The notes under the pieces were generated by a model that did not search any database, was not told the origin of the DNA, and saw only the letters and a list, made by a program, of their open reading frames with translations. 43,905 bases of DNA from Neptuniibacter caesariensis (GTDB taxonomy: Bacteria; Pseudomonadota; Gammaproteobacteria; Pseudomonadales; Balneatricaceae), in NCBI RefSeq assembly GCF_000153345.1, contig NZ_CH724128.1:88516-132420 (forward strand), written 5' to 3'. Below, one piece after another: positions 4,841 to 17,709 of the stretch. Position numbers and translations under genes: made by a program. Every line of letters begins with the position of its first letter. The first letter of the stretch is position 1.

Positions 4841-4925
4841 CTCTCTTTCGGTAGCCCAGCCATCCACAAGGGACCTGTGACTTTGCGCCCCAGAATCGCT
4901 TCTGGTTTGCCATTATCGAGAGAGG
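4841..4925 (-). ncRNA. c-di-GMP-I riboswitch (GEMM-I aptamer)
   Basis: Read on the minus strand, the three conserved GEMM-I blocks occur in order: GGCAAACC, then a CCAGAA-GCGA-TTCTGG hairpin capped by a GNRA loop (P2), then GGGGCGCAAAG with the A that stacks between the guanines. After a short P3 hairpin (TCACAG / TTGTG with a bulge) comes GGCTGGGCTACCG. An outer P1 pairs CTCTCT (about 4919-4924) with AGAGAG (4841-4846). An extra 6-bp hairpin (4958-4977) precedes it in the presumed leader. No terminator was found directly downstream. The next minus-strand gene is CHAD, over 320 bases away, with the plus-strand DUF5062-like gene lying between. Confidence 0.85.
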
Positions 4926-10765: not shown

Positions 10766-11578
10766 TCACCAGAGCGCATGAAAATGGTTAACCGGTCCAT
10801 GACCGGAGCCCACATTCAAATTATCCGCATGCTTAATAGCAGCAGAGATATATTGCTTAGATTTAGCTACCGCGTTTTGCGCGCTTTCACCCTTAGCTAA
10901 AAATGCAGTAATGGCCGAAGCCAACGTACACCCCGTTCCATGGGTATTTTTTGTATCAATTCTATTTGCTTCGAAAATTATAAAGTCGCTGCCATCATAA
11001 AATATATCCGGAGACTCCTCCCCTATCAGGTGGCCACCTTTCAGTAACACTTGCTGTGGGCCTAGTTTCAGCAACTGCTCAGCAATAGCCTTCATCTCAG
11101 TTAGAGTTTGCGGTTCATCACAACCCAAAATAGCCGCTGCTTCAGGAAGGTTTGGTGTAATCAGCGAAGCAAGGGGTAACAATTCATCCACCAGCACAGA
11201 GATAGCATCCGGGCTAAGAAGCGCATTACCACTTTTGGAAATCATGACCGGATCAACGACAAGTGCTAACTGCCTGGGCCTGACGAACTCAGCAACAGTT
11301 CTTACCATTTCCGGGCCGCCTAGCATGCCAGTCTTAACTGCATCAATGTGTATATCATCAAAAACAGTCTCCAACTGCTGGAGAACAAACTCGGGAGTAA
11401 CCGGAAAAACGCCTGTAACCGCATGAGTATTTTGAGCAGTCAAAGCCGTAATAACTGAGGCGCCATATACGCCTAATGCAGAAAATGTTTTTAGGTCAGC
11501 TTGAATACCTGCACCACCACCGGAATCTGATCCCGCGATGGTCAAAGCATTAGCGATCTGCTTGTAGCTATCAGTCAT
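10766..11578 (-). CDS. thiD: HMP/HMP-phosphate kinase ThiD
   Basis: Ribokinase-fold kinase that makes HMP pyrophosphate, the substrate joined to the thiazole by ThiE. The 270 residues open with the substrate-binding ALTIAGSDSGGGAGIQADLKT (near residues 11-31) and end with the anion-hole/catalytic segment THGTGCTLASAI near 212. It is the first gene of a thiD-thiC unit, with an AGGAGGAC ribosome site six bases before the ATG and a TPP riboswitch just upstream. No thiE or thiazole genes are present here. Confidence 0.95.
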   Translation of the reverse strand: MTDSYKQIANALTIAGSDSGGGAGIQADLKTFSALGVYGASVITALTAQNTHAVTGVFPVTPEFVLQQLETVFDDIHIDAVKTGMLGGPEMVRTVAEFVRPRQLALVVDPVMISKSGNALLSPDAISVLVDELLPLASLITPNLPEAAAILGCDEPQTLTEMKAIAEQLLKLGPQQVLLKGGHLIGEESPDIFYDGSDFIIFEANRIDTKNTHGTGCTLASAITAFLAKGESAQNAVAKSKQYISAAIKHADNLNVGSGHGPVNHFHALW

Positions 11579-11636
11579 TCTGTCCTCCTGATCGCGGAGT
11601 GAACAGAACCTCTTTTGTATGATATGTCATTCGATG

Positions 11637-11722
11637 ATCTCGATTTCCTACGCCGGAACAAACCGGATCAGGTTCAACGGGTATACTCTCAGCCTCACTA
11701 ATCGAGGCACCCCGACCAAGAT
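11637..11722 (-). ncRNA. TPP riboswitch (THI element)
   Basis: On the minus strand the canonical blocks appear in order: GGGGTGCC, GGCTGAGAGTATACCC, GAACCTGATCCGG, and CCGGCGTAGGAAATCGAG. The closing stem P1 is visible as ATCTTGGT pairing with ATCGAGAT across the two ends. About 58 bases separate it from the thiD ATG. The leader is short and I see no strong terminator, so control of translation (masking of AGGAGGAC) is more likely than attenuation. A promoter candidate upstream is TGGACG, 17 bases, TAAACT near 11730-11760. Confidence 0.95.
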
Positions 11723-11814
11723 GAGCTAGTAGTTTAATTTCTCAACAGCGGTTCGTCCAGAATTGATCACCGCTATCTAAAAATACCTATAAAAAACTAG
11801 AAGAGAGGCAAAAT

Positions 11815-11832
11815 TAGGAATTTTTCTTATAT
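11815..11832 (+). promoter_or_regulatory. Conserved activator-like box, sRNA copy 1
   Basis: TAGGAATTTTTCTTATAT is identical in front of all three tandem sRNAs. It begins exactly 37 bases before the -10 hexamer (CATAAT at 11852-11857) and 52 bases before the GGATCTCC start block. TAGGAA and TTCTTA are near-complementary half-sites. There is no good -35 hexamer, as expected for an activator-dependent promoter such as those bound by GacA/UvrY/LetA. Confidence 0.6.
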
Positions 11833-11864
11833 TTTTTTAAGAAAAAATAGCCATAATTAATTTC

Positions 11865-12000
11865 ATGGATCTCCTGTTCATGGAAAGAATACGAAGGAAG
11901 GCTCGGTAGCGGAAACGGATGGCAAGATGCCCTAGGACAAAGACCGCAAGGATTATGGATGCCAATGAAGAAGGCCCCTCACGGATGAGGGGCCTTTTTT
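11865..12000 (+). ncRNA. GGA-rich sRNA copy 1 (Csr/Rsm-type, candidate)
   Basis: An independent transcription unit of about 136 nt: -10 box CATAAT, a start near 11864-11866, and a terminator at 11971-12000. It holds nine GGA triplets, many in the AGGA/ACGGA/ATGGA contexts favoured by CsrA/RsmA. The terminator stem GGCCCCTC/GAGGGGCC is capped by the loop ACGGAT, close to the ideal CsrA site. There is no open frame with a ribosome site. This fits a CsrB/RsmY/RsmZ-like RNA that titrates CsrA. The sequence is not one I can match to a named Rfam member, so the family is inferred from motif density and architecture. Confidence 0.75.
11971..12000 (+). terminator. Terminator of sRNA copy 1 with GGA loop
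   Basis: An 8-bp GC-rich stem (GGCCCCTC / GAGGGGCC) with loop ACGGAT, followed by six T. The loop itself is a CsrA-type motif. Confidence 0.9.
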
Positions 12001-12043
12001 GTTTCTGATTGCGCCACTACTAATTCACCCATTCACAGAAAAT

Positions 12044-12061
12044 TAGGAATTTTTCTTATAT
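12044..12061 (+). promoter_or_regulatory. Conserved activator-like box, sRNA copy 2
   Basis: The same TAGGAATTTTTCTTATAT as in front of copy 1, again starting 37 bases before the -10 hexamer CATAAT (12081-12086) and 52 before GGATCTCC. The sequence between copies outside the box and the promoter is not conserved (for example 12001-12035), which points to selection on the box. Confidence 0.6.
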
Positions 12062-12093
12062 TTTTCTACGAAAAAATACCCATAATGGTTCAT

Positions 12094-12229
12094 ATGGATC
12101 TCCTGTTCACGGAATGAATTCAAAGGAAGGCTCGGTAGCGGAAATGGATGGCAAGATGCCCTGGGACAAAGACCGCAAGGAACAAGGATGCCAATGAAAA
12201 AGGCCCCTCACGGATGAGGGGCCTTTTTT
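12094..12229 (+). ncRNA. GGA-rich sRNA copy 2 (Csr/Rsm-type, candidate)
   Basis: Nearly the same RNA as copy 1, about 136 nt, with its own -10 (CATAAT) and terminator. It again has nine GGA triplets. Several differences from copy 1 leave GGA intact, for instance ACGGAATG for ATGGAAAG and GGAACAAGGATGCC for GGATTATGGATGCC, as expected if the protein-binding motifs are what is conserved. It has no coding potential. Tandem duplication with a private promoter suggests dosage or additive output. Confidence 0.75.
12200..12229 (+). terminator. Terminator of sRNA copy 2 with GGA loop
   Basis: Same stem GGCCCCTC / GAGGGGCC and loop ACGGAT as copy 1, followed by six T. Confidence 0.9.
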
Positions 12230-12279
12230 GTACCTACTCACCACTCAACAATGCTAATAATTCTTATTTTCTGTAAAAA

Positions 12280-12297
12280 TAGGAATTTTTCTTATAT
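12280..12297 (+). promoter_or_regulatory. Conserved activator-like box, sRNA copy 3
   Basis: The third identical TAGGAATTTTTCTTATAT, 37 bases before GATAAT (12317-12322) and 52 before GGATCTCC. The 19 bases between the box and the -10 here (CAATCCCTGTAGAAAGACC) differ from copies 1 and 2, so the box stands out as the conserved unit. Confidence 0.6.
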
Positions 12298-12329
12298 CAA
12301 TCCCTGTAGAAAGACCGATAATTTAAGGC

Positions 12330-12465
12330 GTGGATCTCCTGTTCATGGAATGAATATCATGGATGGCCTCGATAAGCGGAAAGGATGGCATTGAAGCCCT
12401 AGGACAAGCCCGCAAGGATTATGGAAGCCAGCGATGGGAGTGCATCAAGGATGACGCACTCCCTC
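12330..12465 (+). ncRNA. GGA-rich sRNA copy 3, diverged (Csr/Rsm-type, candidate)
   Basis: A diverged third copy that keeps the start block GGATCTCCTGTTCATGGAA, the internal CCTAGGACA and CGCAAGGATTATGGA blocks, and about ten GGA triplets. The 3' hairpin has changed completely: GGGAGTGC (12436-12443) pairs with GCACTCCC (12456-12463), yet its loop is again GGA-bearing (AAGGAT closed by TC/GA). No T-run follows, so the 3' end is uncertain and transcription may continue toward the convergent glycosyltransferase gene. Confidence 0.65.
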
Positions 12466-12542: not shown

Positions 12543-13586
12543 CTATGCGGTTTGAGTGTTTACGAATTCTTCACTTTGCCAAACGGTATCAGCAAGATCG
12601 CTCACAGACTCCTTACATCCATCAGCAATCCAGGCAGCCAGCATTGCCGCTAAATCCGGATAGCGTTTCGGCAGCGGGGAAGGCAGTTCCAACCAGGTCG
12701 CTACTTTATCCGATGCCAGATCATAGATAACAACGCCAAGCCCCAGACTTTCAAGCACTTCTGCATTTGACTCCTGCTCTACCTGGCCCTTTTGCGGTAA
12801 TGTAAGCACTTTCTTCCCATACTGGACAGCCTCGCTTAACAAGCCAAAACCCGAGTTACAAATCACGCCTGCACAGCTAGCCAAATCCTTATGAAACCCT
12901 TCCCTGGAAAAAGGTTTAATAAAAATATTATTTTGTACATGTGGCTCATCAACCGCTGCATAGATATGGAATTCGAAATCGCTATAAGCACCCAGAGTTT
13001 GCGCTAGCTCTTCAGGAGCATCGTGCGGAAGATAAACAACGATTTTACGCTCGACTGTTGATGGAGAATACAAGGGAGGCTGAATAAGCGGAGGACAAAT
13101 AGGCTGTTCAAAATGATCCCAATGAAGACCCACAGCTAATTTCGCTGGGGCAAATAGCCGGATCTGGTTTTTAAGAAAAAAACCCGTTTTACTATCAGGA
13201 AGGCGATGCAGAAAAGCGTACTGATGAGCAATACCGACACTGGGGACCCCTTTTACTTTTGCAGCCCAGGCGGTCACTGGCTCAAAATCAGTAATCACCA
13301 GATCATACTCACTTAGATCCAGTTTAAAGATATCCCGCAGCAGTCTTACCGGATTATTACCTGTTAAGGTTTTCCATTTGTTTACCTGACTACCTTCCAT
13401 ATGAAGCGTCATCCCCTGATAACAGCGATAATCACCAAAAGGCTCCATATTGAAAAGTTTTTCAGGCTCGCGACCACTGAAGACAAAATCCACATCGATT
13501 CCCGCCGCTCTTAGCGCAGGCGCCATGACACGAGCACGCGTAATATGACCATTACCTGTTGCCTGCACGCCATATAACACTTTCAT
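12543..13586 (-). CDS. MJ1255/VC2487-family glycosyltransferase
   Basis: A 347-residue predicted glycosyltransferase of the GT-B type. The N-terminal MKVLYGVQATGNGHITRARVMAPAL holds the GxGHxxR nucleotide-sugar motif seen in MurG-like enzymes, and the C-terminal ICNSGFGLLSEAVQYGKKVLTLP (near 240-262) is the typical donor-site loop. The overall sequence fits the conserved MJ1255/VC2487 group, whose acceptor is unknown. There is no signal peptide. It is three bases downstream of the PAP2 phosphatase gene, so they form an operon and may act together on a lipid-linked or envelope substrate (inference). Confidence 0.85.
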   Translation of the reverse strand: MKVLYGVQATGNGHITRARVMAPALRAAGIDVDFVFSGREPEKLFNMEPFGDYRCYQGMTLHMEGSQVNKWKTLTGNNPVRLLRDIFKLDLSEYDLVITDFEPVTAWAAKVKGVPSVGIAHQYAFLHRLPDSKTGFFLKNQIRLFAPAKLAVGLHWDHFEQPICPPLIQPPLYSPSTVERKIVVYLPHDAPEELAQTLGAYSDFEFHIYAAVDEPHVQNNIFIKPFSREGFHKDLASCAGVICNSGFGLLSEAVQYGKKVLTLPQKGQVEQESNAEVLESLGLGVVIYDLASDKVATWLELPSPLPKRYPDLAAMLAAWIADGCKESVSDLADTVWQSEEFVNTQTA

Positions 13587-16125: not shown

Positions 16126-17709
16126 ATGGATTTCATCTGGATTCTATTCGCCTTTGTTTGCGGCTACCTGATGCGCCTGGTTGAGATGCCACCGCTGATC
16201 GGGTACCTATTCGCCGGCTTCTTTCTTCACTTTATAGGGATAGAACCCGTTTCCAGCCTGGATACGCTTGCCGATCTTGGTATTACCCTGATGCTCTTCA
16301 CTATCGGCCTGAAGCTCAATGTAAAAGATCTTTTAAAAACAGAAGTATGGGCCAGCACCCTATCTCATATGGGTATATGGATTCTGATAACAGGCTCTCT
16401 TTTCCTGCTGCTGGCAACCTTAGCTGTGCCTTACTTTACGGATCTGGACCTAAAATCAGCCGCTCTTATCGCTTTCGCCCTTAGCTTCAGCAGCACAGTC
16501 TGCATCGTAAAGCTGCTTGAAGAAAGCGGCGAAATGAAAACCCGGCATGGGCAATTAGCCATCGGCGTTTTGGTCATGCAGGATATTGTCGCTGTACTTT
16601 TCCTGGTTGCTGCCACTGGAAAAATCCCCTCCATATGGGCGATAGGTCTACTGGGTATATTCCTAATAAAACCCCTGCTTAATCATATGCTGATGCGAGC
16701 CGGCCACGGGGAGCTATTACCATTAGCCGGCTTCTTTCTGGCATTAGGCGGCTACGAGCTATTTAACCTTGTAGGCGTAAAAGGCGATCTAGGGGCTTTG
16801 GTATTCGGCATGCTGTTGAGTACACACCCTAAAGCAAGCGAGCTAACCAAATCGCTTCTGAGTTTCAAAGATCTGTTCCTGATCGGCTTTTTCTTATCTA
16901 TAGGTTTCACTGCATTGCCAGATTGGTCAATGCTGGGCATGGCCACCATATTGGCCATTCTCATTCCACTTAAATATCTGATGTTCTTTGGCATATTCAC
17001 CCGTCTACATCTTAGAGGACGTACCTCATATCTAAGTGCGCTTGCCTTAAGTAACTTTAGTGAATTTGGGTTAATTGTTGCCTACCTTTGCGTCGATAGC
17101 GGCTGGCTAAGCGAGCAGTGGCTTGTCATCTTGGCACTGTCTGTTTCGATATCATTTATTCTCACCAGTATTATTTATCGTTCGGCTCACAGCTTCTATC
17201 TCCGCCATAAAGAGAAGATCAAAAGCTATGAAAGCCTGAAACCTCTGGCGAGCGATATTTTCATCCAACCCAAGGATTCAGAAATTCTGGTAATAGGCTT
17301 AGGCCGTGTAGGTAAAGGCGCCTTTAAAGCCCTTCACTCAATGGTAGGAGATAAAGTCTGGGGCATGGATGCAGACCGAAATCGCATCAAAAAATTCCAG
17401 TCCAAAGGGCTACATGTTTTTTATGGTGATGGTGAAGACGCCGATCTATGGAGCAACATGGATACCCATAACATCAAGCTGATTCTTCTTGCCTTACCAG
17501 CGATTGATGACATGCTCAATATTGCTGAACAGCTACACAGCGCCAATTATCAGGGTGAGATTGCAGCCATCGCACGCTTCCCAGATGAACATGATCTTCT
17601 CGTGGAGGGCGGTATCGATAAGGTATTTAACTTTTACACTGAAGCAGGTTTCGGCTTTGCAGAAGAAAGTTTGCAGCTCATCGATTATAAGAAAGAAGCG
17701 AGTTCATAA
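16126..17709 (+). CDS. CPA2-type monovalent cation:proton antiporter with TrkA-N domain
   Basis: Inner-membrane antiporter of the KefB/KefC/YbaL kind, 527 residues. About 12 membrane helices cover residues 1-355; the first, near PPLIGYLFAGFFL, is typical of the Na_H_exchanger domain. A cytoplasmic TrkA-N (RCK) domain follows from EILVIGLGRVGKG near 388, with the Rossmann glycine motif and MDADRNRIKKF as the nucleotide site. No glutathione-ligand domain or TrkA-C domain is obvious, so I do not name it KefB or KefC. It is monocistronic, ending in strong hairpins. Confidence 0.85.
   Translation: MDFIWILFAFVCGYLMRLVEMPPLIGYLFAGFFLHFIGIEPVSSLDTLADLGITLMLFTIGLKLNVKDLLKTEVWASTLSHMGIWILITGSLFLLLATLAVPYFTDLDLKSAALIAFALSFSSTVCIVKLLEESGEMKTRHGQLAIGVLVMQDIVAVLFLVAATGKIPSIWAIGLLGIFLIKPLLNHMLMRAGHGELLPLAGFFLALGGYELFNLVGVKGDLGALVFGMLLSTHPKASELTKSLLSFKDLFLIGFFLSIGFTALPDWSMLGMATILAILIPLKYLMFFGIFTRLHLRGRTSYLSALALSNFSEFGLIVAYLCVDSGWLSEQWLVILALSVSISFILTSIIYRSAHSFYLRHKEKIKSYESLKPLASDIFIQPKDSEILVIGLGRVGKGAFKALHSMVGDKVWGMDADRNRIKKFQSKGLHVFYGDGEDADLWSNMDTHNIKLILLALPAIDDMLNIAEQLHSANYQGEIAAIARFPDEHDLLVEGGIDKVFNFYTEAGFGFAEESLQLIDYKKEASS

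Follow-up and report, generated by a model that had tools for sequence, protein, structure and literature searches.

Three tandem GGA-rich units in Neptuniibacter caesariensis and their relatives: a putative Csr-type RNA family with a conserved promoter palindrome

Why does Neptuniibacter caesariensis carry three consecutive GGA-rich repeats in a single intergenic gap, and what would RNAs made from them do? The window analyzed here is a stretch of 43,905 nucleotides (assembly GCF_000153345.1, contig NZ_CH724128.1, positions 88,516 to 132,420, forward strand). A first-pass annotation, made from the letters and open reading frames of the window, had proposed a triplicated locus of RNAs that titrate CsrA/RsmA, and we examine this proposal through the layout of the locus, its relatives in other genomes, the folding of the units, and their promoters.

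Layout of the locus

The gap between thiD and a glycosyltransferase gene measures 964 bp and holds three direct repeats on the plus strand, beginning at 11810, 12039, and 12275 (spacings of 229 and 236 nt), with units of approximately 135 to 140 nt. Copies 1 and 2 share 90% identity over 193 nt, and copy 3 is 75% identical to copy 1 over 93 nt, units 1 and 2 being nearly alike and unit 3 the more diverged copy. Every unit combines a palindrome, a -10 box, a start region RTGGATCTCCTGTTCA, its GGA triplets, and a 3' hairpin. The features are as follows, in window coordinates; bit scores refer to the model R1 (see below), which was built from unit 1 among others.

10766-11578, minus strand: thiD, left flank of the gap
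11628-11724, minus strand: TPP riboswitch for thiD-thiC, from the Rfam scan, adjoining the triplet
11814-11831, plus strand: GacA-box-like palindrome of unit 1 (TTAGGAATTTTTCTTATA), matching TAGGAANNNTTCYTAT at the fixed place
11852-11857, plus strand: -10 box of unit 1 (CATAAT), from column conservation in 67 units
11865-12003, plus strand: putative sRNA unit 1, 9 GGA, start placed from the -10 box; R1, 121.5 bits
11968-11999, plus strand: 3' hairpin of unit 1, loop CGGA, then a T-tract (repeat comparison, hairpin finder)
12043-12060, plus strand: GacA-box-like palindrome of unit 2 (TTAGGAATTTTTCTTATA type), matching TAGGAANNNTTCYTAT at the fixed place
12081-12086, plus strand: -10 box of unit 2 (CATAAT), from column conservation in 67 units
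12094-12231, plus strand: putative sRNA unit 2, 9 GGA; R1, 117.3 bits
12197-12228, plus strand: 3' hairpin of unit 2, loop CGGA, then a T-tract (repeat comparison, hairpin finder)
12279-12296, plus strand: GacA-box-like palindrome of unit 3 (ATAGGAATTTTTCTTATA), from the genome pattern scan and the 67-unit comparison
12317-12322, plus strand: -10 box of unit 3 (GATAAT), from column conservation in 67 units
12330-12463, plus strand: putative sRNA unit 3, 10 GGA; R1, 118.5 bits
12436-12463, plus strand: 3' hairpin of unit 3, loop AGGA, without a T-tract (hairpin finder)
12543-13586, minus strand: glycosyltransferase gene, right flank of the gap

The first-pass description of three tandem units, each with its own -10 box and 3' hairpin, with 9 to 10 GGA triplets and with GGA in all three 3' hairpin loops, is confirmed. 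The hairpins of units 1 and 2 run into a T-tract, whereas that of unit 3 is no clear intrinsic terminator, because it is followed by TCAACCTCTT and not by a U-tract.

An intergenic position and hairpin ends would also suit cis-acting leaders or attenuators of a neighboring gene. We reject this very improbable reading on gene orientation: both flanking genes lie on the minus strand, the first plus-strand gene of known family further on begins at 16126, and the TPP riboswitch of thiD is a separate element on the minus strand.

Relatives of the units and their distribution

The three window copies were scanned with all 4227 Rfam models, and no match reached a gathering threshold in the triplet. 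At E values of up to 10 there are 39 matches, all below gathering and many of them over the terminator hairpin. The sole family among these labeled with clan CL00106, which we take to be the Csr/Rsm clan, is RsmY (RF00195), whose 19.9 bits on unit 2 compare with a gathering threshold of 57, so that the unit is not a member. The first-pass annotation had named Csr/Rsm models as the place to look for support and an unrelated RNA class as the contrary outcome; the scan returned neither over threshold. Its suggestion that the RNA might be lineage specific, with no named family, holds to the extent covered by Rfam (on the three window copies) and by the genome searches.

We scanned genome_contigs (described as covering 84,980 species) for exact matches to a pattern from the 5' part and retrieved 50 stretches, the titles of which name Marinobacterium, Neptuniibacter, Neptunomonas, Nitrincola, Pontibacterium, Osedax symbiont Rs2, or unnamed Oceanospirillaceae/Oceanospirillales. 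A pattern in which most of a 14-nt block, GGATCTCCTGTTCA, is prescribed yielded 67 distinct units, and these are the basis of R1. Run at E values of up to 0.001 with stricter filters that drop weak matches, R1 has matches in 85 of the host family's 116 genomes, in 11 of 16 genera; among 145 genomes sampled from the order, it has matches in 3, each a member of the host family. Weaker relatives beyond the 67 pattern-collected units also emerge from the R1 search.

The matched genomes carry one to five copies each. A single copy is seen in 59 of the 85 and a second copy elsewhere in 5 (weak in G030 and G197), while in 21 genomes two or more copies follow one another at no more than 1 kb; six of these 21 have three copies, and one of the six has an additional second array of two. 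The place in the genome is conserved as well, since among 50 named loci, some of them incomplete, a glycosyltransferase gene is found in 40 and thiD in 21.

Covarying helices and GGA in hairpin loops

Two helices of the units covary. In the 3' stem, each of the 11 pairs shows changes in both partners. An inner helix is found in 64 of the 67 units, against 37.3 when the right arms are dealt anew (maximum, 45 in 1000 rounds), through pairings such as GCGG/CCGC, GCGA/TCGC, GCAG/CTGC, GTGG/CCAC, and GTGA/TCAC. The search for this helix was free of alignment, the right arm being found by pattern and the left arm anywhere in a 16-nt segment, because the MAFFT alignment misplaces it in many rows (50.7% of cells paired). 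The consensus fold has 14 pairs, 10 of which show both-sided changes. A 5' hairpin around GGA lies beyond a covariation test, because its core TTC/GAA never varies.

The GGA counts of the window units (9, 9, and 10) compare with 6.3, 5.8, and 5.0 in 40 dinucleotide shuffles each, a modest excess per unit. Across the 67 units, which are related and hence do not count as independent events, the mean is 9.67 GGA versus 5.34 in dinucleotide shuffles (mean z, 3.0), and the probability that a GGA is unpaired is 0.56 versus 0.47, exceeding the shuffle mean in 54 units. GGA occupies 164 of 269 predicted hairpin loops, compared to a mean of 49.7 in 30 shuffle rounds (SD, 6.0; maximum, 61). For the window copies alone the picture is fainter: GGA is in 5 of 10 loops of the minimum free energy folds, six of the nine GGAs in copy 2 are less than half unpaired, and the folding z scores (-1.85, -1.86, and -0.52) are only slightly better than those of shuffles. 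Mapping GGA onto predicted loops, as the first-pass annotation had suggested, thus agrees with a Csr-type RNA for the family and falls short for the window copies; the predicted loop placement is convincing only at the family level.

At the 3' end, the best hairpin returned by a finder blind to GGA has GGA in its loop (counting the closing bases) for 63 of the 67 units; in S034 and S051, the hairpin that this finder picked may not be the last one. For the remaining four (S019, S023, S037, and S047), a GGA hairpin was reported by a finder that requires GGA and is hence biased.

A promoter palindrome shared with a second RNA

In the window units, the conserved palindrome (TTAGGAATTTTTCTTATA or ATAGGAATTTTTCTTATA) occupies the usual -35 position, with 38 nt from its first base to the -10 box. 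In each of the 67 units, 14 or more of the 16 positions of TAGGAANNNTTCYTAT are matched at a nearly fixed distance from GGATCTCC (-52 in 57 units, -53 in 9, and -51 in 1), and each column of the -10 box (-15 to -10) is identical in 62 to 66 of the 67. The palindrome is close to TWAGGA-N6-CCTATA or CTTATA and differs from the published GacA box, TGTAAG-N6-CTTACA (PMC8523701), of which variants such as TATAGCGAAACGCTTACA are described (PMC7911923). Searching the host's own genome with the pattern TTAGGANTTTTTCYTAT gave four exact sites and one with a single mismatch, which are the three units and two others. With up to two mismatches there are 9 sites versus 12 for the reversed control, i.e., no enrichment, and we give weight to exact or one-mismatch sites and none to looser ones because the control is equally common.

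One of the exact palindromes stands before an RNA that is unlinked to the triplet:

G000:C5:1082505-1082732, minus strand: putative second GGA-hairpin RNA, behind an rssC-like gene, with the same palindrome

Its palindrome, at C5:1082708, overlaps the stop codon of the rssC-like gene (182 bits to RssC; cutoff, 250) and is an exact copy of the element at the same 38-nt distance from a -10 box. Beyond this promoter element, no sequence match was found between the triplet and the second RNA. An rssC-like match was obtained in 45 of 54 genomes; 30 of the loci were read, and in 13 of these we judged such an element and such an RNA to be present, in one case shifted downstream. Within these 13 relatives, GGA is seen in 48 of 57 hairpin loops, compared to 8.2 in shuffled sequences (maximum, 14 in 100 rounds). 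Nine loci of the second family were scanned with Rfam, and no threshold was reached. The presence of one element before two sequence-unrelated GGA-hairpin RNAs is, in our view, the strongest sign of one shared Csr circuit. The findings as a whole suggest that the Csr system of a whole marine family would use two RNA families that lie below Rfam thresholds in the scanned copies. The common element also offers a handle for finding more of the regulon.

Two further sites of the palindrome were recorded. An exact one, at G000:C5:1320995, precedes a 62-codon cysteine-containing frame with no NCBIfam match, convergent with an MctR-like response regulator gene (279.7 of 300 bits). Another, at G000:C5:43842, has two mismatches, which is at chance level by the control, and precedes a short frame that by eye starts with several cysteines.

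CsrA, the candidate activator, and a model for the units

The genome of N. caesariensis encodes a typical CsrA (119.5 bits; cutoff, 73). Together with the homologues, the covariation, the GGA-in-loop statistics, and the element common with the second RNA, this supports the first-pass assignment to Csr/Rsm-type titrating RNAs. We regard it as highly probable, judging from sequence comparison, that the units are CsrA-sequestering RNAs, each activated by a Gac-like response regulator. Each unit would be transcribed into a small RNA of approximately 135 to 140 nt. Several CsrA dimers would bind to it at GGA motifs located in single-stranded stretches and in hairpin loops, among them that of the 3' hairpin, and this sequestration would free CsrA-repressed mRNAs. 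A NarL/GacA-type response regulator acting on the palindrome upstream of the -10 box would activate each copy separately, and the three copies, along with the fourth, sequence-unrelated RNA behind the rssC-like gene, may serve to raise dosage.

The UvrY/GacA model gave 62 matches in the host's genome, none over the cutoff of 280 (the best have 189 and 181 bits). The gacA gene is usually found upstream of uvrC; in an 8-kb stretch around uvrC, no UvrY/GacA-type regulator was found upstream of uvrC here, and the gene after it is presumably pgsA. Both results, like the departure of the palindrome from the published box, weigh against the model. A diverged GacA-like regulator is the likely activator, and these results make its identity a testable question; candidates are the response regulators at G000:C5:282274 and C5:354820. 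The genome also encodes a diverged second CsrA-like protein (G000:C5:294345-294500, minus strand), which is over the cutoff for Pfam CsrA (46.3 bits) and below that for NCBIfam CsrA (37.8 of 73 bits).

An invariant 5' block and the csrA leader

All 67 units contain the block GGATCTCCTGTTCA unchanged, though the collecting pattern fixes most of it. Its conservation exceeds the needs of CsrA binding, which counts against the CsrA-sequestration model. Part of the region could be read as the start of short peptide genes (RTG GAT CTC CTG TTC), with GTG in 46 and ATG in 19 of the 67 units followed by sense codons. The third codon positions, however, vary no more than the other two, and by eye the frame stops after 14, 7, and 7 codons in the three window copies; we reject this scarcely credible reading on both grounds.

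Another alternative is that the RNAs act mainly by base pairing of the block with Shine-Dalgarno sequences, that of csrA first, GGA binding being secondary or absent. The segment GGATCTCCT is perfectly complementary to AGGAGATCC, which lies at the ribosome site of the host's own csrA. Of 26 distinct csrA leaders, 15 contain the motif AGGAGATYC, which none of 107 leaders of eight other genes has, and predicted duplexes average -16.4 kcal/mol for csrA leaders versus -6.1 to -9.3 kcal/mol for controls. However, the shorter AGGAG occurs in 22 of the 26 csrA leaders and in 4 of the 107 control leaders, so that the complementarity may reflect a strong Shine-Dalgarno sequence alone, and one control leader (mutM) also reaches -16.9 kcal/mol. 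The block itself is predicted to be paired within the RNA (positions 8 to 15, unpaired probability 0.08 to 0.19), and part of it can pair internally with an invariant GGA at positions 32 to 34.

Comparing genomes by eye and uncorrected for kinship, we observe AGGAGATYC in 19 of 24 genomes with a match to the RNA and in 0 of 6 without one; two of these six lie outside the family, and G015 and G026 were rated negative in part because they are not among the 85 R1 positives. Matches to AACAGGAGATCC with at most one mismatch number 34 in the host's genome versus 4 for the reversed control. Three are the RNAs themselves, and 27 of the other 31 were examined, of which just two (L184 and L195) lie 3 or 10 nt before a candidate start of more than 100 codons. 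Action mainly by base pairing would moreover leave the GGA loops on variable stems unexplained, and we consider it improbable. Somewhat less doubtful, yet still unlikely, is a double-acting antagonist in which GGA sequesters CsrA while GGAUCUCCU pairs with the csrA Shine-Dalgarno sequence (AGGAGAUYC) and blocks CsrA synthesis; if true, such an RNA would hit the CsrA protein and its mRNA at once.

Relation to known Csr systems

CsrA sequestration, the preferred reading, can be set beside described systems. The units differ from the Aln1a-c RNAs of Alteromonas, a genus of another order than the host's, in that no Alteromonas record is among the 50 exact-pattern stretches; the two may be distant kin, the comparison here being by description. 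In the extracts of the report on Alteromonas macleodii Te101, Aln1a-c are three CsrA-sequestering RNAs that each begin at a site of their own within a single intergenic region of 404 nt (PMC5864184), which resembles the three units in one gap; the Aln1 host is a marine copiotroph, and A(N)GGA lies in single-stranded regions (PMC5864184). Pseudomonas brassicacearum has tandem Rsm RNAs, rsmX-1 and rsmX-2, with an upstream GacA site, TATAGCGAAACGCTTACA, the left half of which resembles the palindrome found here (PMC7911923). According to the extracts of that paper, these RNAs, compared by description, are approximately 110 nt long with 6 GGA each and have another palindrome, whereas the units described here have approximately 135 to 140 nt and 9 to 10 GGA (PMC7911923). 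In Marinomonas mediterranea, extracts describe CsrB and CsrC with ANGGA/AGGA repeats, a GacA box, a terminator, and the UvrY-like regulator PpoR (PMC8523701). The GGA repeats are alike by description, whereas those RNAs are at separate loci with the box TGTAAG-N6-CTTACA and the units here are in tandem behind a different palindrome (PMC8523701).

As far as these extracts go, published Csr RNAs have the same anatomy as the units (PMC8523701, PMC7911923, PMC5864184). Tandem Csr-type RNAs are already known, namely, Aln1a-c (PMC5864184) and rsmX-1/rsmX-2 (PMC7911923), and an extract from work on Vibrio describes csrB duplication (PMC6262261). What is new, as far as our searches go, is the RNA family, its spread, the common element, and the second RNA family. 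Among open-licence PMC papers, we found nothing relevant on Neptuniibacter small RNA, csrB was absent among the matches listed for five related lineage names, and no paper contained a sequence motif associated with LetA. The natural series of one to five copies provides material for asking why Csr RNAs multiply.

Elsewhere in the window, we observe a c-di-GMP-I-GGC riboswitch at 4846-4920 on the minus strand (62.7 bits; gathering threshold, 59).
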